Below are positions 4,236 to 39,367 of a DNA stretch of 41,015 nt, one piece after another; position 1 is the stretch's first letter; every line of letters begins with the position of its first letter. Source of the DNA: Rubritalea profundi (GTDB lineage Bacteria; Verrucomicrobiota; Verrucomicrobiia; Verrucomicrobiales; Akkermansiaceae); the NCBI RefSeq assembly GCF_002954445.1, contig NZ_MQWA01000001.1, forward strand, positions 2,932,216 through 2,973,230. Direction: 5' to 3'. The position numbers and the translations under genes are program-made. The notes under the pieces were generated by a model that was not told the DNA's origin, ran no database searches, and saw only the letters and a list, made by a program, of their open reading frames with translations.

Positions 4236-5112
4236 TTACTCTACGTTTTGAATCTGCTCGCGGATTTTCTCGAGTTCCGTTTTCGCGGTGACGACGTGCT
4301 GGGCAAGTGTCGCATCATTGGCCTTGGAGCCGATGGTGTTGAACTCTCGGTTGAGCTCTTGGCAGAGGAAATCAAGTGACCTGCCAACTGGTTCTGAGGA
4401 ATCTAGGTACTCGCGGAACTTGGCGAAGTGCGAGCGTAGACGAGTGATCTCCTCGCTGATGTCACAACGCTCGGCAAAAATCCCGACTTCCTTGAGCACG
4501 CGGTCGTCGCTGAGGTCGAGCTCTAGGCCTGATTCCTTGAGGCGTCGGTGGAGGTTGTCACGGTAGCGTGCAATCACTGATGGCGAGTGCGCTTCGATGG
4601 CGCTCGCTTCAATTTTTAGAGTGTCGAGTCGGTCTAGCGTGTCTTGTTTGAGGTCGTCACCCTCACGGCTACGCATTTCTACTAGGCTGGAAATTGCCGC
4701 GTTTAGTGCGGGCATAATCACTTCTCTGACAGAGTCGATGCAGACTTTTTTTTTCTTCGAATTTAATAATGTCTGGTGCGCGAAGGATGTCGGCAGCAGT
4801 GATGTCGAGTGGTTGGCCTATCTCGTGGCTGAGTGATTTGAGAGTATCAGAGAGAGACTTAGCGCGTTTCAGATCGACGCTGATCGGGCTCGGAGCCTTG
4901 TCAGTTTGCTCTAGCGAAATGCTGATAGAGACTCGGCCACGTGAGATCTTGCCGAGAACGAACTTGCGGACTTCAGATTCAAGCTCTGCGTAGTTGCGTG
5001 GAAGTTGGACTACAACTTCGCCTTGCTTACGGTTAACTGAGCTCGCTTCGATATTCGCGACGAGAGTTTCTGAGGCTTGCGATGCGCGGCCAAATCCGGT
5101 CATTGATTTCAT
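4236..5112 (-). CDS. yicC: YicC/YloC-family endoribonuclease, frame broken at an A9 run
   Basis: The start MKSMTGFGRA is diagnostic of the YicC family, a conserved bacterial endoribonuclease; the C-terminal half shows the matching DUF1732 region (EMRSREGDDLKQD, FNTIGSKANDA, VTAKTELEKIREQIQNVE). The two halves lie in different frames. The change occurs at a run of nine T on the plus strand (4746-4754), read as A9 in the gene; eight A would join FEEKK directly to VCIDSVREVIMPAL and give a protein of about 291 residues, the normal length. It lies 18 bp downstream of tatC on the same strand and is probably cotranscribed. A9 is also long enough for transcriptional slippage, so functional product is possible even if the sequence is right. 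Confidence 0.85.
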
Positions 5113-5130: not shown

Positions 5131-6666
5131 TTAGGGTTTTTCTGAATTATCGTTCTCTTTGTCATCGACGCCATCTGCAGGTTCATCTGAGCTTGGCTCG
5201 TCGGCGTTTTCATCTTCAGAGTCGCTAGGATCTTCTTCGGTATGAGGATCGTGTGGAGCCTGGAGGTTATTTAATAGCTCAGGAGATTCACCTTCACTGG
5301 TGAGTGTGTCTACTTCACCGTCATCATGCTCTTCTCCTTCACCATCTTCTTGATGCTCTGGAGCTTGCTCGAAATAGTCGTGGTCGTGGTCGTGGTCGTG
5401 GTAATGATCATGATAGTCATGGTGGTCATGGTGGTCATGATCGTGATCGTGATCGTGATCGTGATCGTGATCGTGATCGTGATCGTGGTCATGGTCATGG
5501 TCATGAGCCGAGTCATCGTGGGCCGCAACGGTGCCAGGGGCGGATACTAAACGTGGCTGGTAGTTGGCCATTTCTTCAGCTTCCTTTTCTAGCTCTTTCT
5601 TTCGGCTAAAGTAGGCGAACCAAATACATATTTCGTAGAGCAGGGCCATAGGGACAGCCAGCATGCTGAGCGTGAGCATGTCGCCAGTAGGGGTGATTAT
5701 AGCCGCTATCACAAAGATGGACACAACTGCGTAGGAGCGCGTGCGGCTCATGAGGTCGTAGTCGAGTAGGCCTAGTTTGACCAAGGTCATGACGACCACT
5801 GGGAGTTCAAAGGCGAGACCAAAGACGAGGGTGAACTGGGTGGCAAAGGTGATGTACCAACCGATGCGCCATTCGTTTTCAACTCCCATGCTACCAGAAT
5901 AGACATAGAAAAATTCTAGAGCCTTCGGTAGAACCAAGAAGTAGCAGAAAAAGACGCCGGTGAGGAACAGGCCAAAGCCAACTATGAGTGCGGGCCACAG
6001 AGCTTTGCGCTCAGTAGATTTCAAGCCAGGAAGAACAAACTGTAGCACAAAGACTAAGATAAAAGGGAAGGATACGATCAGGCCGGCAAAGAATGCCAAC
6101 TTGAGCGAGAGCATGAAGGTCTCGGTCGGGTGCATCGACTGCATCTTGATGACCTTATTTTTTGCTCCGACCTTAGCGCTAGGTTCACCCACTAGGAGTT
6201 CCCTGACGGTGGTGCTGAGCTTGGGGTCAATATTGGGTAACTCATCGATGAATTTCTGCTTTTCCTCCAGGGTTTCGAGCGACTGAGCGGCACGGTAGTA
6301 ACCAGCACACTCGGCATAGAAGGCGAGGTCTTCGTCTTTGAATTGAGCGTAGAAAACAGTTTTTTCCTCAGGGCTCAAGCCGGATGAATTATAGGAGGCG
6401 CCCTTCGCTTGTTCCCATTGGTCAGGGGTAATAGTCTCAGGCAGGCGTTCCTGCTGGGATTGCTCCCAGACAACTTCCAGCGGCTTGCGCAAGAGATCCA
6501 TGAGGATGTCCTTCAGCGAATAGCACGCAATGGTAGCAATCAGTAATACGACGACGATTCGCGTGATGGTTGTTCGCAGATCCTCCAAATGCTCGAGGAA
6601 TGGTTTTTCATCGATGTTTTTATTGGCTTTGTTGCGGAGCTCAAATGCTTTGTTTAAAAGGAACAT
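5131..6666 (-). CDS. tatC: Sec-independent translocase TatC with periplasmic insert and His-Asp tail
   Basis: A 511-residue TatC, about twice the usual 250. The core is recognisable: the cytoplasmic FLEHLEDLR motif (residues 24-32) that binds twin-arginine signal peptides, six predicted membrane segments, and the later ITPTGDMLTLSMLAVPMALLYE region. Between membrane segments 1 and 2 there is an extra soluble domain of about 100 residues (roughly 75-185). After the last helix, which ends in RKKELEKEAEE, a tail of about 130 residues begins with alternating His-Asp dipeptides (about residues 385-430) and finishes in a Glu/Asp/Ser-rich segment. The tail should face the cytoplasm and looks metal-binding. 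Downstream yicC follows after 18 bp. TatC identity is secure; the role of the additions is unknown. Confidence 0.9.
   Translation of the reverse strand: MFLLNKAFELRNKANKNIDEKPFLEHLEDLRTTITRIVVVLLIATIACYSLKDILMDLLRKPLEVVWEQSQQERLPETITPDQWEQAKGASYNSSGLSPEEKTVFYAQFKDEDLAFYAECAGYYRAAQSLETLEEKQKFIDELPNIDPKLSTTVRELLVGEPSAKVGAKNKVIKMQSMHPTETFMLSLKLAFFAGLIVSFPFILVFVLQFVLPGLKSTERKALWPALIVGFGLFLTGVFFCYFLVLPKALEFFYVYSGSMGVENEWRIGWYITFATQFTLVFGLAFELPVVVMTLVKLGLLDYDLMSRTRSYAVVSIFVIAAIITPTGDMLTLSMLAVPMALLYEICIWFAYFSRKKELEKEAEEMANYQPRLVSAPGTVAAHDDSAHDHDHDHDHDHDHDHDHDHDHDHDHHDHHDYHDHYHDHDHDHDYFEQAPEHQEDGEGEEHDDGEVDTLTSEGESPELLNNLQAPHDPHTEEDPSDSEDENADEPSSDEPADGVDDKENDNSEKP
5382..5508. repeat. In-frame GATCGT-type hexanucleotide repeat encoding His-Asp
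   Basis: Tandem hexamers (GTCGTG, then GTGGTC/ATGGTC variants, then eight or more GATCGT copies) encode the His-Asp tail of TatC on the minus strand. Because the unit is six bases, copy-number change alters tail length by two residues without shifting frame. Long ORFs on other frames here are consequences of the repeat. Confidence 0.85.
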
Positions 6667-11077: not shown

Positions 11078-13316
11078 ATGCACTGTATAGCACTCACTTT
11101 ATTACTCTTTGGAATCAGCGGCTATGCGGACTCTGAGCCCGTTGAATTCAACCGTGATATCCGGCCGATTTTATCGGATAAGTGCTATGCCTGCCACGGA
11201 CCTGATAAGGAGGCTAGAGAAGCTGATTTACGTCTAGACACGGAAGAAGGACACGGAAGAAGGCAGTCAAGCTGACCTAGATGGGCATCAAGCCATTGTG
11301 CCGGGAAATCCTGATAAAAGTGCTCTTATTCTACGCATTAACTCGGACGATGAAGACCTAGTGATGCCTCCACCCAGTTCTCACCTAAGCCTTAAAAATA
11401 AGGAGAAAGAGCTTCTCAGGCAGTGGATTAAAGAGGGCGCTAAGTGGCAAGGTCATTGGTCGTTTCAGCCCATTTCTCGGCCATTTCTCACCAGCCACAA
11501 GGCACATTCTATTGATGCGCTGGTGCATGCTCATTTGAAAAAAAATGCGGTGGAACCGGCTGCTCCAGCAAAGCCAGTGGTTTGGTTGCGCCGCGTTACT
11601 CAAGACCTCACGGGCTTGCCTCCCACGCTGGCCCAAATCGATGCCTTTCTCGCAGACTCCTCAGATAAGGCCTATGAAAAGGTCGTCGATCGTCTGCTCT
11701 CCAGCGTCGACTACGCGGAGCGCATGACCACAATTTGGCTCGATAATGCGCGTTATGCCGATAGCAATGGCTTCCAGTTCGATAATGCTCGAACCATGTG
11801 GCCGTGGCGCGATTGGGTGATCAAATCCTTCAGGGAGAACATGCCCTATGACCAATTCGTGACCCAGTAACTGGCTGGCGATTTACTAGAAGATCCAAGC
11901 CAGGACCAATTGATTGCCACCGGTTTCAACCGCAATCATGGCTATTCCATCGAGGGGGGAATCAACGATGAAGAATACCGGGTGATGTATGCCAACGATA
12001 AAACCACGACATTTGGCACCTTACTTCTCGAGCTAACAATGGAATGCACCCGATGTCACGATCACAAATATGATCCCTTAACTATGGAGGATTACTATTC
12101 ACTTTCGTCATTTTTCAATACCAGTGCTGAAGTCGGCGCTCCTGGGGAAAGAGGCCGCAGGAAAAAGACTGCAGCTCCCTTTATTGAATATTTTCCAATT
12201 GCTGGCCAATCACTCTCAGGTTCTGACAAAACCTCCAAAACATCTGACAAACCGGTCTTAGTTATGGTGATGGAAGAGAAGAAACGCGACAGCCACATTC
12301 TACTCCAAGGGCTCTTCGACCAAATCGGAGCTAAGGTTAAACCGCGTACTCCGACCATATTACCAAGCTTTGATGGCTATCCAGCCAACCGCCTAGGTCT
12401 GGCTCAGTGGTTGTGCGCCGATGATAACCCGCTGTTTGCCCGAGTCACAGTCAATCGACTTTGGCAGCAACTTTTTGGAGTCGGTATCGTGAAGTCGTCT
12501 GACAACTTGGGTTTACAAGGTGAGCTTCCTAGCCACCCAGCATTGCTCGATTGGTTGGCGACTGAATTTCGGGACAATGACTGGGACCTCCAGCATATCA
12601 TTCGGATGATCGTGCTCTCTGACACCTACCGTCAGTCCTCAAAATTCCGCAAGGACATCTAGGATCCGGATAACCGCCTGCTGGCTAGAGGGCCGAGCTT
12701 TCGCCTGCCAGCGGAAGTTATCTGCGACCAAGCATTGGCTGCAAGTGGCCTCATCTCTCATGCCGTTGGGGGCCCTAGCGTGATGCCTTACCAGCCAGCT
12801 AAGTTGTGGGACGACCTCAACGCTCCACCGTCTCACGCCGAAACCTACACTCAAAGCTTTGGTGACAAGCTCTAACGCAAGAGCCTCTATACCTACTGGC
12901 GACGGGCGATACCGCACCCAGAAATGGCCACCTTTGACGCACCAAGCCGTGATGTCTGTAGCGTGGAGCGCATTGCTACCAACACCCCCTTACAGGCACT
13001 AGTCACCTTGCGCGCCCCTATTTATTTAGAATCATCCCGAGTCTTAGCGGAGTCGCTTATCGGCAAAAAAGACCCCATCCAACTTGCCTTCCGCCGCATT
13101 CTGTCGCGCAAAGCTGACGCGATTGAGCTAAGCGCATTGAGCCAGCTCCACCAAGACAGGCTCGAATCCTACCAGAAAGACCCAGAGGCTGCGCGTCGTT
13201 TTCTCAAAGTGGGGGAACACCCGACTCAGCCAAATTCCAATAAAGCCGAAGTGGCCGCTCTGGCTGATGTCTGCCTCGCTATCTTCAACCTCAGTGAATC
13301 ACTCACTCGCAAGTAA
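11078..13316 (+). pseudogene. Planctomycete-type DUF1549/DUF1553 cytochrome-like protein, multiply broken
   Basis: The order of domains is that of the verrucomicrobial/planctomycete family: signal peptide ([18 protein letters not shown]), a PSCyt1 haem motif (CYACHGPDK), DUF1549 (NGFQFDNARTMWPWRDW, ECTRCHDHKYDP) and DUF1553 (NPLFARVTVNRLWQQLFG, ATFDAPSRDVCSVER). It cannot be made as sequenced. A 13-bp tandem duplication at 11237-11262 shifts the frame, and after it the frame contains TAA 11868-11870 (at the expected Gln of FVTQQLAGD), TAG 12660-12662 (before DPDNRLLAR) and TAA 12873-12875 (at the expected Tyr of KLYRKSLYTYW). Removing the duplication restores [16 protein letters not shown]. 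The family is secreted and often paired with DUF1501; its biochemical role is unsettled. Confidence 0.85.
11237..11262 (+). repeat. 13-bp perfect tandem duplication
   Basis: The unit GACACGGAAGAAG occurs twice without a gap (11237-11249 and 11250-11262) inside the DUF1549 gene. Deleting one copy restores the family reading frame, so the duplication is a recent inactivating event. Confidence 0.9.
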
Positions 13317-13322
13317 TCTCCT

Positions 13323-14750
13323 ATGAAAGATCTCATCGAATCTGCTATCCTCAGCATGAACCGTCGCCAGACGCTTAAGACCATTGGCGGTGGATTCGGC
13401 TCCATGGCTTTAGGCAACATGCTGGCCGACGCTGGAGACTTCACTCCGACGGCTCATCACAAAGCAAAAGCAAAGCGCGTGATCTACCTCTTTCAAGCCG
13501 GTGGTCCCTCACAGGTCGATCTATTCGACTACAAACCGGCGCTCAAAAAGTTTCACGGGACAGACACCTTTTCCCATGTTGAAAAATCCGGACGACTCAC
13601 GGGATTTACCGACAAACACAAAATCCACCCGATTATTAACTCGCGTTATAAGTTTGAGCAACATGGTGAATGCGGATCGTGGGCGAGTGAATTGGTTCCT
13701 CATATGAGTAAAATCGTTGATGATGTCTGCACCATTCGTTCAGTCTGCACCAAACCGATCAACCACGACCCGGCAATGACCTTCATGCAGACTGGTCACA
13801 ACCTCCCGGGGCGGCCATGTCTGGGATCATGGATGAGCTACGGCCGCGGCAGTATGAACTAGAATCTGCCAGATTTCGTCGTGCTAGTCTCAAAAGGTGA
13901 CCTAGGTAACATGCAGCCACTCAACTCCCGACTATGGGGCAATGGCTTTCTGCCTGGCCACTATCAAGGAGTGCGTTTCCGCTCGGGTTCCGAACCTGTA
14001 CTTTACTTGGAGGACCCTGCAGGCAAGAGCATGAAGGACCAACGTCGCATGCTCGACACCATTAGCCAACTCAATCAGCATGAGCTCCAAAGCAGTTGCG
14101 ACCCAGCGATTGAGACCCGTATTATGCAGTATGAAATGGCTTTTCGTATGCAGACCTCGATCCCTGAATTGTCTGACTTCTCCGACGAACCCGAGTTCAG
14201 CTTCAAGCTGTATGGTGAGGATGCGCGCCGCCCGGGAACCTATGCCTATAATTGCCTCATGGCGCGCCGGCTGGCTGAGCAAGATGTCCGCTACATTCAG
14301 CTATACCATTCCGGCTGGGATCACCATTTCAACCTACCTAATCACCTTCCAAAACGTTGCCGCGAGAACGATCAAGCCAGCGTGGCCTTGATCACCGACC
14401 TTAAGCAACGCGGATTACTCGACGACACAATTGTCGTCTGGGGTGGCGAATTCGGCCGTACTTCGTTTAGCAAGAGTGGTAGAGTCAATGAATCCTACGG
14501 TCGTGATCACCACGCCAATTGCTTCACAAAAATTGTGGCCGGCGGTGGCTTCAAGTAAGGTCTCAATTACGGCGAAACCGATGACCTATCGTATCGTGTC
14601 ACCCGTGATGAAGTGACTGTCCACGACTTACACGCCACGATCCTCCATCAACTAGGGCTCGACCACGAACGACTCACCTACACCTCCCAAGGTCGCCGCT
14701 ATCGTCTCACCGATGTCGAAGGACATGTCATGAAAAACCTCTTGAGCTAA
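13323..14750 (+). pseudogene. DUF1501 (sulfatase-like) protein, two premature stops
   Basis: The single frame from ATG 13323 to TAA 14748-14750 encodes the DUF1501 family: SMNRRQTLKTIGGGFG twin-arginine-like leader, FQAGGPSQVDLFDYKP, INHDPAMTFMQTGHNLPGRP, YHSGWDHH, VVWGGEFGRT, and the terminal [14 protein letters not shown]. It is interrupted by TAG 13860-13862 (position of Gln in the conserved NQNLPDFVVL) and TAA 14556-14558 (GGGFK then GLNYGETD). The family has an alkaline-phosphatase-superfamily fold and is exported by Tat. It follows the broken DUF1549/DUF1553 gene by 6 bp, so the whole operon is decayed. A closely similar intact gene is at 37991-39367. Confidence 0.85.
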
Positions 14751-14810: not shown

Positions 14811-16056
14811 TTAGCCTTCGAGTTCATCGTGCGGGCCGAAAAATTCGAAATGGATTTTATCCACTGGGTGATTGAATGCCTTAAGCGCCTTGTAGACTTG
14901 AGCCATCATTGGCTTTGGACCGCAGAAGTAGACTTCGGTTTCTGAGGTGAGGTATTCCGAGAGAAATGTCTCATCGAAAAACCCTTCACTGTGGTAGTTC
15001 CCTTTGTCTTCTTCCGCTGGATGGCTGTAGCGGAAGAGCGCATTGATTGCTGGGTTTCTCTTTGCGAGTCCGCGGACTTCATCAGCGAGTGCGTGCATTT
15101 TACCATTGATAGCACCGTGGATGAAGGTGATGTCTTTGCTCGGACTAGCGTGGCAGCATCGAAAGCACTGGTGTGAGACCTACTCCGCCAGAGAGGAAAA
15201 GAACCGGAGTTTCTGCAGGGTGCTCGCCGAGGAAGAATTCGCCACAGGCTGGAGCGACCTCGATTGTTCCACCTTGTTGTATTTGCTCGTGAAGGAATGT
15301 GGATGCGTAGCCGTTTGGCGTGTCATCACCACCAGCAGTTTCACGCTTCACGCTAATGCAGTAGTGGTTCCAGTCAGATGAGCCCGAGAGTGAATAATTA
15401 CGCATCGTGGTCATCTGGCTATTTCCTGTAAATGGGCAAGCGCTAGCCTTAGCATTTTCCTTAAGAAGGGGAACGCGTACTGTGAGGTATTGCCCGGGCT
15501 TGAACTTTGGAAGTGGCTTGCCGTCAGCACGCTTGAGATAGAACGAGGTGATCGTATCGCTTTCCTTCACGCGCTTAAAGACCGTCATGTCGGTGAATCC
15601 CTCCCAACCCGCATCTTGTTGGTTGTCGTAAATGGATTTTTCCGCGCCAGTCAATACTCCAGCTAGGAAGCCATAAGCTTCAGCCCAAGCATCGAGAATT
15701 TCTTTTGGTGCAGGATTGAGTAAGTCATCGATAGAGTCGAGCTGGTGCTCACCCACGATTGGGTAGTGCTCAGGCTTGATGCCGAGTGATGCGTGCTTGT
15801 TGGAAATACGACTCACTGCTTCAGCCAGATTTTCTGGAGTTTCAATATTTTGGGCGAAAGCGCAGATGGCGGCTCCGAGTGCTTGTTGTTGGTTGCCTGT
15901 CTTCTGGTTGGCTTGGTTGAAAAATTCCTTCACCTCTGGGTTGCCAGCAAACATGCGCTTGTAGAAGTGTTCGGTCAGCGCTTGGCCGTTTTGTTGGAGG
16001 AAGGGAATGGTCGCTTTGACCGTCTCGATCATTGTTGTGGATAGTGTCGTGCTCAT
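14811..16056 (-). CDS. hmp: Flavohaemoglobin (nitric oxide dioxygenase), one frameshift
   Basis: N-terminal globin domain (residues 1-140; TIPFLQQNGQALTEHFYKRM, KHASLGIKPEHYPIVGEHQL with the proximal-histidine region), then an FAD domain (MRNYSLSG near residue 220) and an NAD-binding domain (LFLSGGVGLTPVLSML, EVYFCGPKPMM). This is Hmp, which turns NO plus O2 into nitrate using NADH. The frame shifts at about 15152, where the plus-strand GG gives LPRYASPSK-like nonsense; one base fewer rejoins LSMLHASPSKDITFIHG to the C-terminal part. It is divergent from an NsrR-like regulator with 87 bp between, the classical NO-sensing arrangement. As sequenced the NAD domain would be lost. Confidence 0.85.
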
Positions 16057-19407: not shown

Positions 19408-19716
19408 GTTATTGTTTTAATTATTTCGGTGAGAAGTTATAAAATCACTGTTCCAATTCACCGCTTGGATAGTGAGATGACGGTAATCGAAGATTGCCGT
19501 CTGAATTACCATTAAACGTATTTTCGATTTTAGCGAGAGGAATTTTACCAACTTGTTCATTTTTAGTGTCCGCAGCTGTTTTTTTAGGCACTATTGCTTA
19601 ATTTCTCTAAGAACTGTGAACACAGGGTACTCTTCAAAAGTTGCTGCATTGTAGGAACAGGTCATGGATGTGTGGAGCGTAGAAGAGGCATCTTGACTCT
19701 TCTACTGTTATCTTTC
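19408..19716. other. csp leader and polA 3' flank
   Basis: AT-rich noncoding DNA. The part nearest csp (19408-19590) contains T-rich tracts and is the likely leader and promoter of csp; no ORF or recognisable RNA family is visible. Confidence 0.4.
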
Positions 19717-19739
19717 AAAGAGGCTGGAAGCCCTCTTTT
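19717..19739. terminator. Weak hairpin after polA
   Basis: AAAGAGG (19717-19723) pairs with CCTCTTT (19732-19738). The stem is short and lacks a T-tract in the minus direction, so it is only a candidate polA terminator. Confidence 0.35.
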
Positions 19740-19743
19740 ACGT

Positions 19744-22583
19744 CTAGTGAGCTTCGAGCCAGTTGTTGCCGGTGCCGGAGTCGGCTTTGGCGGGGACGTT
19801 GTGGGGGAGTGCTAGTGCGGTTTCCATGGCTTCGGTGATCAATGGGATGAGTGCGTCTTTTTCGTCGAGTGCGAGGTCGAAGATGAGTTCGTCGTGGACT
19901 TGGAGGATCATCTTGCTTCGGTAGTTGCCGTCGCGCAGGATTTTGTCGACTTTGACCATGGCGAGCTTGATCATGTCGGCGCCGGTGCCTGGATCGGGGT
20001 GTTGATGGCGGCGCGCTCGGCATTTTTGCGGATCATACCATTGCGCGAGCTGATGTCGCGGAGGATACGGCGGCGTCCACCGAGTGTCTCGACGTAGCCA
20101 TCTTTCTCAGCTTGCTCCATGGTGTTGTCCATGAAGGTTTTGATGGCGGGGTATTGCTCGAAGTAGGAATCGATGATGCTGGCTGCTTCTGCGCGTGGGA
20201 TGCCGAGTCGCTGGGATAGGCCAAAGGCTGAAATGCCATAGATGATGCCGAAGTTGACCATCTTGGCGGACGAGCGCATGTCGCGGGTGACTTCATCGAG
20301 CCCGACTCCGTAGACGCGGGCGGCGGTGGCTGTGTGGATGTCGAGGTCTTGCTGGAAGGCTTCGATCATAGCTTGGTCGCCAGCGATGGCTGCCATGACT
20401 CGGAGTTCCACTTGGGAGTAGTCGCATGCGAGCAGAGTGAAGTCAGCACTGCGTGGGATGAAGGCTTTGCGAATCTCGCGGCCAGCTTCACTGCGCACGG
20501 GGATGTTTTGCAAGTTCGGGTCTGAGGATGCGAGACGGCCCGTGGCTGTCATCAACTGATGTAGGTGGGTGTGGATGCGGCCATCGCTCGGGCAGATGTG
20601 CTCGGGAAGTGCATCGACGTAGGTGGACTTAAGCTTCGCTGCCTCTCGGTATTCGAGGATGTTGGCGATGATCGGGTGCTTCGACGCTAGCGCTGAGAGG
20701 GTCGACTCGTCGGTCTTGAATTGGCCAGTCTTGGTCTTCTTTGGCTTCTCAACGAGTTCCATTTCGCCGAAGAGAATTTCGCCGAGTTGCTTTGGTGAGT
20801 TGAGGTTAAACTCTTTGCCAGCTTGTCCATAGATGTCAGCGGTGAGAGTCTCGAGCTTTTTGCCGAGGGTTTTACCAATCACCTTGAGGCTCTCTAGGTT
20901 GACTGAAATGCCTTCATGCTCGATGCGTACAAGGACGGGAAGAAGGGGTGACTCGATCTCGTAAAAGACATCGGACTGGCCGGATGATTCGAGTTGCTCC
21001 GCGAGGATTTCTGCGAGCTGGAAGGTGACGTCGGCATCTTCGCAGGCGTAGTCGGTGAGAGCCTCGGAGGGGATTATCGACATGTCGATGTGGTTCTTCT
21101 TTTTCTTTTTAGGTTTTTCCTTCTTTTCCGCGAAGCTAAAGAGGTCGTCATCGGCGCTGTCAGCTTCTTGCTGTAGCTCAACTTTTTCTGCGATTTCGCT
21201 GAGTTTGATAGGCGTGTAGCCGAGCATGGATTCAGCTAGGTAGTCCATGTTGTGGCGTTGATCTGGCTCGACTAATGCGTGAGCAAGCATGGTGTCGAAA
21301 TACGGTGGGGCAGCATCGAGTCCCTGAGCAAGAAGAACTGAAAGGTCGTACTTGAGGTTGTGGCCGATCTTGGTGGCTTTGGATGTGAGCGCTGGACGCA
21401 GGGCTTCGATAATCTCAGCAATGCTGAGTTCGGTTGAAGGTGCGACAAAGTAGGCTTCACGCGCTTTCCAGCTGAGGGCGACACCGAGAACTTTGGCAAT
21501 GCGCGGATTGAGCGACGTGGTCTCGAGGTCGAAACAGAACAGGTCTTGTCCGTTGAGGAGTTTGGTGACTTTTTCGAGAGCTGCAGGGGTATTGACTATA
21601 GTATAGTGAGTCTTGAAATCTGAGAAGTTCTTGAGGGCTGCTTGCAAGAGTTCAGGTTGTTCCGCTACTGCTGTGGTGTGGCCACGGCCAGACTGGAAGT
21701 CATTTCCATAAAGCCGTTTGCCTAGTGCGCTGAACTCGAGCTCAGTGAAAAGTGACTTCACTGCATCGTCATCGCGATTTTCAAGGACGAGATTCCCGAA
21801 TGTTGTTTCGACCGGGACATCGAGGATGATGGTGGTGAGGATCTTAGAGAGCAGAGCTTGTTGTTTGTTGTTCTCCACGTTTTCCTTCTGTTTGCCTTTG
21901 AGTAGATCGGTGGACTCTAGGAGCTTTTCGACGGAGCCGAATTGCTTGACGAGCTTCTTAGCTGTTTTTTCGCCAATGCCTGGGACGCCGGGGATGTTGT
22001 CTGAGACGTCACCCCAGAGGGCTAATACGTCGATGACTTGTTTTGGGTCATCAATTTGCCACTTTTCGAGAATGGCTGGGACATCGAGGAGTTCGGTGTC
22101 GGATCCTTTGCGGCCGGGTTTCCACATGGTGGTTGTGGGGGATACAAGCTGGGCGAAGTCTTTGTCCGGAGTCACCATGTAAGTATGGAATGAACCTTCT
22201 TGGTCAGCCTTGTGGGCGAGCGTGCCAATGATGTCGTCTGCCTCGAAGCCCGGGAGCTCGATCACTGGGATGTTGAATGCGTGGAGGAGGCGCTTCACTT
22301 CTGGGATCGCTTTGGCGAGGTCTTCGGGCATTGCGTCGCGCTGAGCCTTGTACTGCGGGAAAATCTTGTGCCGTGGTGTCGGCTCTTTGGTGTCGAAAGC
22401 GACACCGAGATGGGTAGGCTGGTGCTTGTCGAGGATGTCGAGTAACGTATTCATGAAGCCGAAGACTGCGGAGGTGTTCATCCCCTTACTATTATAGATA
22501 GGGTTACGAATAAGAGCGAAGTGTGCGCGGTACACCAATGCCATGCCATCGAGTAAGAAGAGACGCTTTTCAGAGGAAGCCAT
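19744..22583 (-). CDS. polA: DNA polymerase I with proofreading, one frameshift near the C-terminus
   Basis: About 946 residues in order: 5' nuclease domain (LFLLDGMALVYRAHFAL, ELPGFEADDIIGTLA, GDVSDNIPGVPGIG), a 3'-5' exonuclease with its acidic DxE motif intact (FCFDLETTSLNPR) and YACEDADVTFQLAEI, and the polymerase domain (LACDYSQVELRVMAAIAGD, RSSAKMVNFGIIYG, LQVHDELIFDL). It fills gaps and removes primers in replication and repair. The frame shifts at CC 19988-19989, where three C would restore INTPIQGTGADMIKLAM; as sequenced the last 76 residues, including the HDE catalytic motif, are lost. Since polA is normally needed, a sequence error is the simpler reading. Confidence 0.93.
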
Positions 22584-37990: not shown

Positions 37991-39367
37991 TTAAGAGAGG
38001 ATTTGGCTGATGATTTTGGATGGTTCTACACCCGTGAGTTTATGGTCGAGCCCTTGGGCTTTGAAGGTGAAGCTTTCGTGTTCGAGACCAAGCAGGTGGA
38101 GGATGGTGGCATGCAAGTCGTGGACTGAGACTGGGTCTTTGACGACTCCGTAGCCTAGTTCATCGGTCTCACCGTGGACGGTTCCCCCTTTGATTCCACC
38201 ACCAGCGAGAAATACTGAGAAGGCTTTGATGTGGTGGTCGCGACCACTTCCCTGAGCCATCGGCGTACGGCCAAATTCACCACCCCATATGACGAGAGTC
38301 TCATCGAGCATGCCGCGACGTTTGAGGTCGCTGAGTAATGCTGAGGTGCCTTGATCGACAATCTTTGCAGTTTTTGCGATGTTCTTTTTAATGCCGCCGT
38401 GGTGATCCCAACCGCGGTGGTAGAGCTGGATGAAGCGTGTGCCGCGCTCGGCTAGGCGGCGGGCGAGTAGACAGTTAGACGCGAATGATCCGTCACCAGG
38501 CTTGCAGCCGTAGAGGTCGAGAGTTTCCTGTGATTCGTCCTTGGTGTCCATGAGTTCAGGGACTGAGGCCTGCATTCTGAAAGCTAGCTCGTATTGTTCT
38601 ATGCGGGTAGCGACTTCGCGGTCGTTTGTCTGTTGCGCCTTGATCTGATTGAGCTTGTTTACTGCGTCGATCAGTTTGCGTTGGTCAGTTGACTGGATGC
38701 CATTTGGGTTGCTGACGTAATGGACTGGGTCTCCGGCCGATTGGAATTCGACTCCTTGGAGGTGGCCGGGGAGGAAGCCGTTGCTCCATTGTTTGGATGA
38801 AATCGGTTGACCCTGACCACCACCAGTACTGGTGAGTACTACGAATCCGGGTAGGTTCTGGCTCTGGCTGCCGAGGCCGTAGAGGACCCATGATCCCATA
38901 GAGGGGCGGCCCGGGATGATTGATCCCGTATTCATGAAAGTGTGCGCGGGGTCGTGGTTGATTTGCTCTGTGTGCATAGAGCGTACCAGCGCGATGTTGT
39001 CAGCATGCTTTGCTATGTTCGGGAAGAGATCGGAGATTTCCATTTGGCTTTCGCCGTGTTTGGAGAAGTCGTGCTGAGCCCCCATGCACTTGAGAGCTCG
39101 GCCTTGGAGTTGGGCTAGTTGTTCACCTTTGGTGAATGATTCTGGCATGGCTTTTCCATCCATTTCGCGCAGCTTCGGTTTGTAGTCGAAGGTTTCTAGG
39201 TGAGAGGGTCCGCCCGCCATACTGAGGAAGATGACGCGTTTGACTTTCGGTTTGAAACTGGTAATGCCAAAGGTGAACTCGCTGCCGAAGAGGTCGTTGA
39301 GAGCTATTGAGCCCAGACCTGTGAGTCCTTGGGCTAGAAAACTACGGCGTGTGGTTTGATTGAACAT
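37991..39367 (-). CDS. DUF1501 (sulfatase-like) Tat-exported protein
   Basis: An intact 458-residue DUF1501 protein. N-terminal twin-arginine leader (TTRRSFLAQGLTGLG), then FLSMAGGPSHLETFDYKP, INHDPAHTFMNTGSIIPGRP, YHRGWDHHGG, LVIWGGEFGRTPMAQG, and the C-terminal [17 protein letters not shown]. The fold is that of the alkaline phosphatase superfamily and the protein is expected to be exported folded by the Tat system. It lies 23 bp downstream of the DUF1553 gene and ends before a terminator. Function is not established; linkage to DUF1549/DUF1553 suggests a shared extracytoplasmic task. The paralogue at 13323-14750 has the same motifs but is broken. Confidence 0.88.
   Translation of the reverse strand: MFNQTTRRSFLAQGLTGLGSIALNDLFGSEFTFGITSFKPKVKRVIFLSMAGGPSHLETFDYKPKLREMDGKAMPESFTKGEQLAQLQGRALKCMGAQHDFSKHGESQMEISDLFPNIAKHADNIALVRSMHTEQINHDPAHTFMNTGSIIPGRPSMGSWVLYGLGSQSQNLPGFVVLTSTGGGQGQPISSKQWSNGFLPGHLQGVEFQSAGDPVHYVSNPNGIQSTDQRKLIDAVNKLNQIKAQQTNDREVATRIEQYELAFRMQASVPELMDTKDESQETLDLYGCKPGDGSFASNCLLARRLAERGTRFIQLYHRGWDHHGGIKKNIAKTAKIVDQGTSALLSDLKRRGMLDETLVIWGGEFGRTPMAQGSGRDHHIKAFSVFLAGGGIKGGTVHGETDELGYGVVKDPVSVHDLHATILHLLGLEHESFTFKAQGLDHKLTGVEPSKIISQILS

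Follow-up and report, generated by a model that had tools for sequence, protein, structure and literature searches.

A TatC protein with a predicted helical insert and an acidic, histidine-rich C-terminal tail in Rubritalea profundi, and its variation among relatives

The tatC gene and its protein

The window, by which we refer to the entire stretch of 41,015 nucleotides from Rubritalea profundi that was analysed, contains on its minus strand an intact gene encoding the translocase component TatC, whose product carries a periplasmic insert and a long cytoplasmic tail. These features are located as follows:

5131..6666, minus strand: tatC, 511 amino acids, complete open reading frame with stop codon (open reading frame and profile matches)
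6151..6444, minus strand: periplasmic insert, residues about 75-172, compact and all-helical by prediction (structure models)
5131..5595, minus strand: cytoplasmic C-terminal tail, residues 358-511 (154 amino acids) and stop codon, net charge -54 (composition and pLDDT)
5374..5520, minus strand: His-Asp block, residues 383-431, 6-bp repeats (repeat and sequence reading)
5308..5349, minus strand: acidic motif EDGEGEEHDDGEVD, residues 440-453 (sequence comparison within the genus)

The product of 5131-6666 matches the family profile PF00902 with an E-value of 3.5e-62 (210 bits compared to a curated cut-off of 25.1) and TIGR00945 with 166 bits (cut-off 132.7), so that the intact frame of 511 codons on the minus strand bears out the preliminary description of a TatC of about this length. 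A Foldseek search with its AlphaFold2 model retrieves seven PDB chains with E-values of 0.001 or lower, all of which are TatC (best 1.6e-6). Across 67 aligned sequences, including the one from the window, His 26, Phe 210 and Glu 219 are invariant and Asp 29 is nearly so; by our reading of the alignment these residues line up with His 12, Phe 94, Glu 103 and Glu 15 of E. coli TatC, which together with Tyr 100 are assigned a role in signal peptide binding in the available part of the corresponding study (PMC13323110). Four of these five positions are kept in the window protein, with Asp 29 as conservative replacement of Glu 15, and a lysine is found at the position of Tyr 100. In light of the profile scores, the PDB matches of the model and the preservation of the four signal peptide residues, the protein is very likely a working TatC. 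One copy of tatC was found in the 4.17 Mb genome, and its neighbours encode a YicC-like nuclease and a HAD hydrolase, followed by a Na+/H+ exchanger.

Elsewhere in the window, a NapB-like cytochrome and a 4Fe-4S ferredoxin-like protein encoded at its start (29-1029) are likely part of a nitrate-reduction cluster. A DUF1501 piece identified with Pfam (13323-13862) contains the N-terminal sequence RRQTLK, which reads as a twin-arginine signal, as does RRSFLA at the N-terminus of the product of 37991-39367, which by eye resembles the DUF1501 piece, and both products are candidates for Tat cargo. Frame shifts or in-frame stops interrupt several genes, namely yicC, DUF1549/1553, DUF1501, a globin-domain gene resembling a flavohaemoprotein and polA (4236-5112, 11298-13316, 13323-14558, 15145-16056 and 19715-22583), and the splitting of such housekeeping or otherwise common genes suggests sequencing errors or decay in the assembly.

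The insert of about 100 residues that had been placed between membrane segments 1 and 2 was located at residues 75 to 172, approximately. In the AlphaFold2 model it forms about six helices, with pLDDT values of 93-98 per 10-residue block and of 78 in the last block, and it remains compact and helical when modelled alone (mean pLDDT 90). It matched no family in Pfam and no fold in the PDB, where the best Foldseek E-value was 0.61. All 67 sequences of the alignment, which comprise the window and 66 relatives, three of them from an Akkermansia-like genus (g3), contain the insert; as judged from this alignment, it is not special to the window protein and is nearly family-wide among the TatCs read. 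The TatC of locus L139 (genome G071, genus g3), which counts 273 codons, contains neither insert nor tail, and its genome holds two TatA-type matches. Five loci of a sister family (f2) equally lack an insert between segments 1 and 2, their matches spanning 657-678 bases compared to about 940, and segment 1-2 inserts of other types were read from the sequences of further families of the phylum (L157-L160, L166 and L167).

The tail had been described as a His-Asp stretch built from six-base repeats and followed by an acidic stretch, and both were recovered, the former as an array at 5377-5502 and the latter as the motif EDGEGEEHDDGEVD. Residues 358-511 include 27 His, 35 Asp and 23 Glu, and the tail is predicted to be disordered, with pLDDT values below 50 nearly throughout residues 383 to 504 of the AlphaFold2 model. 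The array consists of 20.5 copies of a 6-bp unit with 78% match, the exact count being uncertain since neighbouring genes are broken, while the tatC frame itself is intact. Its longest unbroken (HD)n run (residues 388-412, 25 residues) is composed of eight CACGAT and four CATGAC units, which vary at the third codon position only, and exchanges between Asp, His and Tyr appear beyond this run. The sequence CAYGAYCAYGAYCAYGAY, which codes for HDHDHD, has 12 overlapping matches in the 4.17 Mb assembly, all within tatC, compared to none for the reversed control, a count to be read with the partial masking of the assembly in mind (34,038 N per 800,000 sampled bases). The clustered His and Asp ligands by which His-rich metal-binding proteins are recognized are present in the tail, and a search with residues 363-511 against Pfam, including TatB, retrieved no family at E-values up to 1.

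Tail composition and turnover in the family

The relatives belong to a family that is probably Akkermansiaceae. TatC was read in 110 of the 179 family genomes with a match, the window's own included, with the rest being mostly from g3 or lower-ranked, and further g3 loci were also inspected. Exclusion of three tails shorter than 40 residues, all from g3, leaves a set of 107, which is reduced to 104 by dropping L022, L048 and L052 for their runs of N and to 101 for composition by also dropping L028, L076 and L098, whose frames are not closed. The family sequences are related, and row-wise tests thus treat non-independent samples, with p-values that overstate their independence.

A tail lacking in all relatives, the outcome that would have spoken against its relevance in the preliminary description, is not what we find, since outside g3 all 107 TatCs carry one of at least 43 residues. 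Their lengths range from 43 to 263 residues, or from 45 to 263 if the three frames that run off the end of a contig are set aside. In g3, tails measure about 25 residues in most loci read, with 11 in L112 and 3 in L139; an exception is L146, with a tail of about 60 residues without His. The net charge is -10 or lower in 102 of the 104 usable tails. Histidine accounts for at least 5% of residues in 72 of these tails, and 10 of the 12 tail-bearing genera include one or more species at this level. The remaining 32 stay below 5%, with 29 at about 4% or less and seven without any His, and this low-His group keeps its acidity. On a quick single-gene tree, the assignment as His-rich changes at least 18 times. 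The variation extends to close relatives: the nearest one available is a different species with 72% identity in the core, and in the closest relative L002 the tail lacks an HD array and has a His content of 3%, but retains its acidity and a GEE.DDG motif. Stretches resembling this motif are found in 10 of the 12 tails of the genus, which differ among its 12 species, and no sequence motif common to the tails of the whole family was found. The f2 loci (L152-L156) resemble the window protein in carrying acidic tails of 91-134 residues, with charges of -20 to -31 in the four of five that were measured, but these four contain 0% His, with a single His in the acidic stretch of L152. A scan of named genomes returned two matches, L031 from Cardiobacterium valvarum (31% identity, residues 182-365) and L032 from Burkholderia anthina, the latter corresponding to an HD stretch at the N-terminus of a P-type ATPase.

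The enrichment of His is specific. Across 101 tails it accounts for 7.6% of residues compared to 1.5% in the cores, whereas the respective values are 2.3 and 2.2% for Asn, 2.7 and 2.7% for Gln and 3.1 and 3.0% for Tyr. The tail exceeds its own core in His in 93 of 104 cases, compared to 56 for Asn, 47 for Gln and 50 for Tyr; Pro is also enriched (85 of 104). A single-base change turns an Asp codon into one for His, Asn or Tyr, and a Glu codon into one for Gln. Drift from Asp and Glu codons should thus raise Asn, Gln and Tyr as well as His, and with these three at background, such drift alone is disfavoured as source of the His. In a control with 600 open reading frames from 800 kb of the own genome, seven acidic, non-hydrophobic windows of 60 residues contain 1.2% His, compared to 9.0% in 134 windows from family tails. 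A proteome-wide habit of forming His-rich acidic stretches is thus not seen in the sampled fifth of the genome, and genome-wide the HDHDHD pattern was found in tatC only. Another protein of this genome (L217:645-2661) contains an acidic KEDGD tandem repeat without His.

Repeat arrays are found in 46 of the 107 tails, with units that are unlike among species and genera. Those containing His encode HD (6 bp, L001), HDD (9 bp, L080), HAD (9 bp, L042), HDSY/HDSH (12 bp, L043) and DPHHDDH (21 bp, L029), arrays of EPT (L098), EKAD (L064) and EES (L006) are free of it, and further arrays have units of 30 bp (L063) and 117 bp (L020), the latter being a minisatellite of 2.6 copies with a His/Asp-rich unit in the TatC tail of a genus-mate (L020:1009-2892). 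The charge of the tail is kept while in-frame repeats rebuild its sequence. The comparison of tails with cores, the unlike repeat units and the acidic windows of the own genome together indicate that acidity is the constant property of the tail and His a frequent and specific addition.

Possible roles of the tail

The possibility that the repeat is an artefact of assembly or sequencing draws on the broken frames of yicC, DUF1549/1553, DUF1501 and polA nearby, which reflect assembly errors or decayed genes, but it conflicts with the 521-codon open frame, in which no stop interrupts the array, and with comparable His/Asp tails in relatives from other assemblies. We consider it extremely improbable, and with respect to the existence of the tail, which had been subject to this objection from the outset, it can be rejected on both grounds, whereas the exact number of units could shift. 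A role in metal handling, which had been proposed as sensing or delivery, would mean that Zn, Ni, Cu or Co is bound by its His-Asp clusters in the cytoplasm, where the tail could serve as buffer or sensor of the metal or hand it over to folded Tat cargo. The 27 His of the tail, its uninterrupted (HD)n run of 25 residues and the elevation of His above Asn, Gln and Tyr would agree with such a function, as would the occurrence of other HD-rich stretches in likely metal-handling membrane proteins, which include a permease with an HDHD loop from a genus-mate and the N-terminus of the P-type ATPase, whose metal roles are assumed from their sequences. Yet the tail persists without any His in seven of 104 cases, no metal gene was seen adjoining tatC, and Cu-oxidase_3, the sole metal family compared, is found in 16 of 42 genomes with His-rich and 11 of 29 with His-poor tails, corresponding to an odds ratio of 1.0. 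This comparison, which included 71 hand-picked genomes covering genera with both His states, thus revealed no association with a copper enzyme. What stands of the proposal is the specific enrichment, which fits a role of the His; metal binding as such is possible, but as general purpose of the tail it is disfavoured by these three observations and not specifically supported, and we regard this explanation as unlikely.

A somewhat doubtful account, to which we assign more weight, would view the tail as an acidic disordered extension that is kept for charge or solubility only, with slippage and drift supplying His that has no specific job. Its fast turnover, as reflected in the lengths of closed frames, the arrays with His-free units among them, the repeated gain or loss of His-richness on the tree and the Akkermansia-like genus, which mostly lives without a tail, are consistent with this account. 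It would not explain why His is raised and its single-base neighbours are not, why His and Asp recur together within many different repeat units and why other acidic stretches of the own genome, of which only seven were found, are not rich in His.

We tentatively favour a functional TatC whose disordered, polyanionic and His-favouring tail would act as a docking or proofreading arm. This preference is based on the composition of the Tat system and on two analogies. The genome encodes one TatA-type protein of 83 residues (97 from an earlier start) and contains no match to tatB above its cut-off, which is a strict test as only three of the 14 named genomes used as control passed it. The role of TatB can also be filled by TatA. 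Among 195 genomes, one TatA-type match was found in 164, two in 12 and none in 19, and 31 such proteins that were read count 69-108 residues. Each of the 31 scores against tatAE and, at a lower level, against tatB, so that the absence of TatB rests on family scores. With TatA-type proteins being short and TatB not detected above cut-off, no long cytoplasmic part other than the tail of TatC is seen in the Tat proteins that were found. In the accessible portion of a 2013 survey, Verrucomicrobia are listed as 'C <-> A2', with C and A loci apart and a 0 in the column that we take as TatB, for four genomes (PMC3827258). As for the analogies, folding quality control and holdase activity of E. coli TatB require His 109, His 112 and His 123, and the question of whether these histidines sense Zn or pH is raised by the authors in the available text (PMC9436932). 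In the TOM complex, acidic patches have been proposed as receptors for basic presequences (PMC8150904, in part), and an acidic tail near the site that binds basic signal peptides recalls this acid-chain idea.

In such an arm, each core complex would contribute more than one tail (three if the trimer described in the available part of PMC13323110 applies) to an acidic brush at the cytoplasmic face, which might draw in Tat signal peptides by their basic n-regions and contact the waiting precursor. Patches of His that respond to pH or metal could tune these weak contacts, and the tail may thereby take on the docking or proofreading job that in E. coli falls to the His-dependent cytoplasmic domain of TatB. 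It counts against a docking or proofreading arm that in the published complexes, as far as the consulted sections describe them, substrates associate solely via their signal peptides (PMC13323110), as does the finding of no motif common to the tails of the family. The genus g3, with mostly a single TatA-type match and yet a tail of mostly about 25 residues, shows that a missing TatB does not force a tail, and the tail as plain outcome of this absence is weakened as explanation.

The number of DUF1501 proteins was used as proxy for Tat traffic, based on first-look counts. This load correlates weakly with the His content of tails (rho 0.33), but in phylogenetically independent pairs the relationship is not significant (median p 0.29), which argues against traffic as driver of His. 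It also correlates with tail charge (rho -0.25, p 0.01 in related rows) but not with tail length. Among the genomes without a DUF1501 match, 20 of 41 are listed, 19 of which belong to g3, and one g3 genome has a match; the coincidence of a mostly missing tail and a lack of DUF1501 in this genus is at best a single event. A bolder version of the docking and proofreading arm, which we deem quite improbable, would hold that in a TatAC system without TatB a disordered tail of TatC, polyanionic, rich in His and fast-evolving, has taken over from TatB the proofreading of folded cargo. Its charge and grip would be switched by pH or metal, and it would be upheld by repeat expansion selected for composition and not for sequence.

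Comparison with known systems

The lineage carrying the tail offers natural variants, His-rich, His-free and tail-less, for testing docking, proofreading and the control by metal or pH. It bears on the sensing of folding by Tat and on the role of disordered cytoplasmic parts of translocases, in a system that is apparently devoid of TatB. Our search of the openly accessible literature, with subscription papers outside its scope, revealed no publication dealing with a His-rich tail of TatC, and the available parts of studies on Tat in Corynebacterium (PMC4383559) and on DUF1501 in PVC bacteria (PMC4452313) contain nothing on TatC tails.

Stretches of the HDHD type that resemble the array of the window are found in a permease-like membrane protein of a genus-mate with an HDHD/HSH-rich loop (L173:191-2211), which is adjoined by another membrane protein that contains a short stretch rich in His and Asp, and in the P-type ATPase described above. 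In these proteins, His is mixed with Gly, Ser, Ala and Cys, whereas the array of the window is strongly acidic and is part of a protein translocase. Like the tail, the E. coli TatB domain is a flexible cytoplasmic part of the translocase, and its histidines matter in proofreading; in contrast, it combines helical and random coil regions with three histidines, whereas the window tail belongs to TatC, is predicted to be disordered and contains 27 (PMC9436932, in the portion available). The likeness is a functional analogy only, as the Pfam search found no homology.

Large periplasmic inserts in TatC have been published for Nitratifractor salsuginis (PDB 9E02/9E07) and Myxococcus xanthus (9E03), whose proteins resemble the one in the window in their combination of a core with such an insert (PMC13323110, available sections). 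These inserts are located in different loops and are mutually unrelated, that of N. salsuginis being disordered and that of M. xanthus trimeric, as described in the same sections, which do not mention a His-rich tail for either protein. The N. salsuginis chain aligns straight across the position of the window insert between segments 1 and 2, and unlike both published examples, the latter is predicted to be a helical domain without match in the PDB. Compared to these systems, the core of the window protein is that of an ordinary TatC and its insert is of a kind that is already known, whereas its tail is a new variation on TatC.
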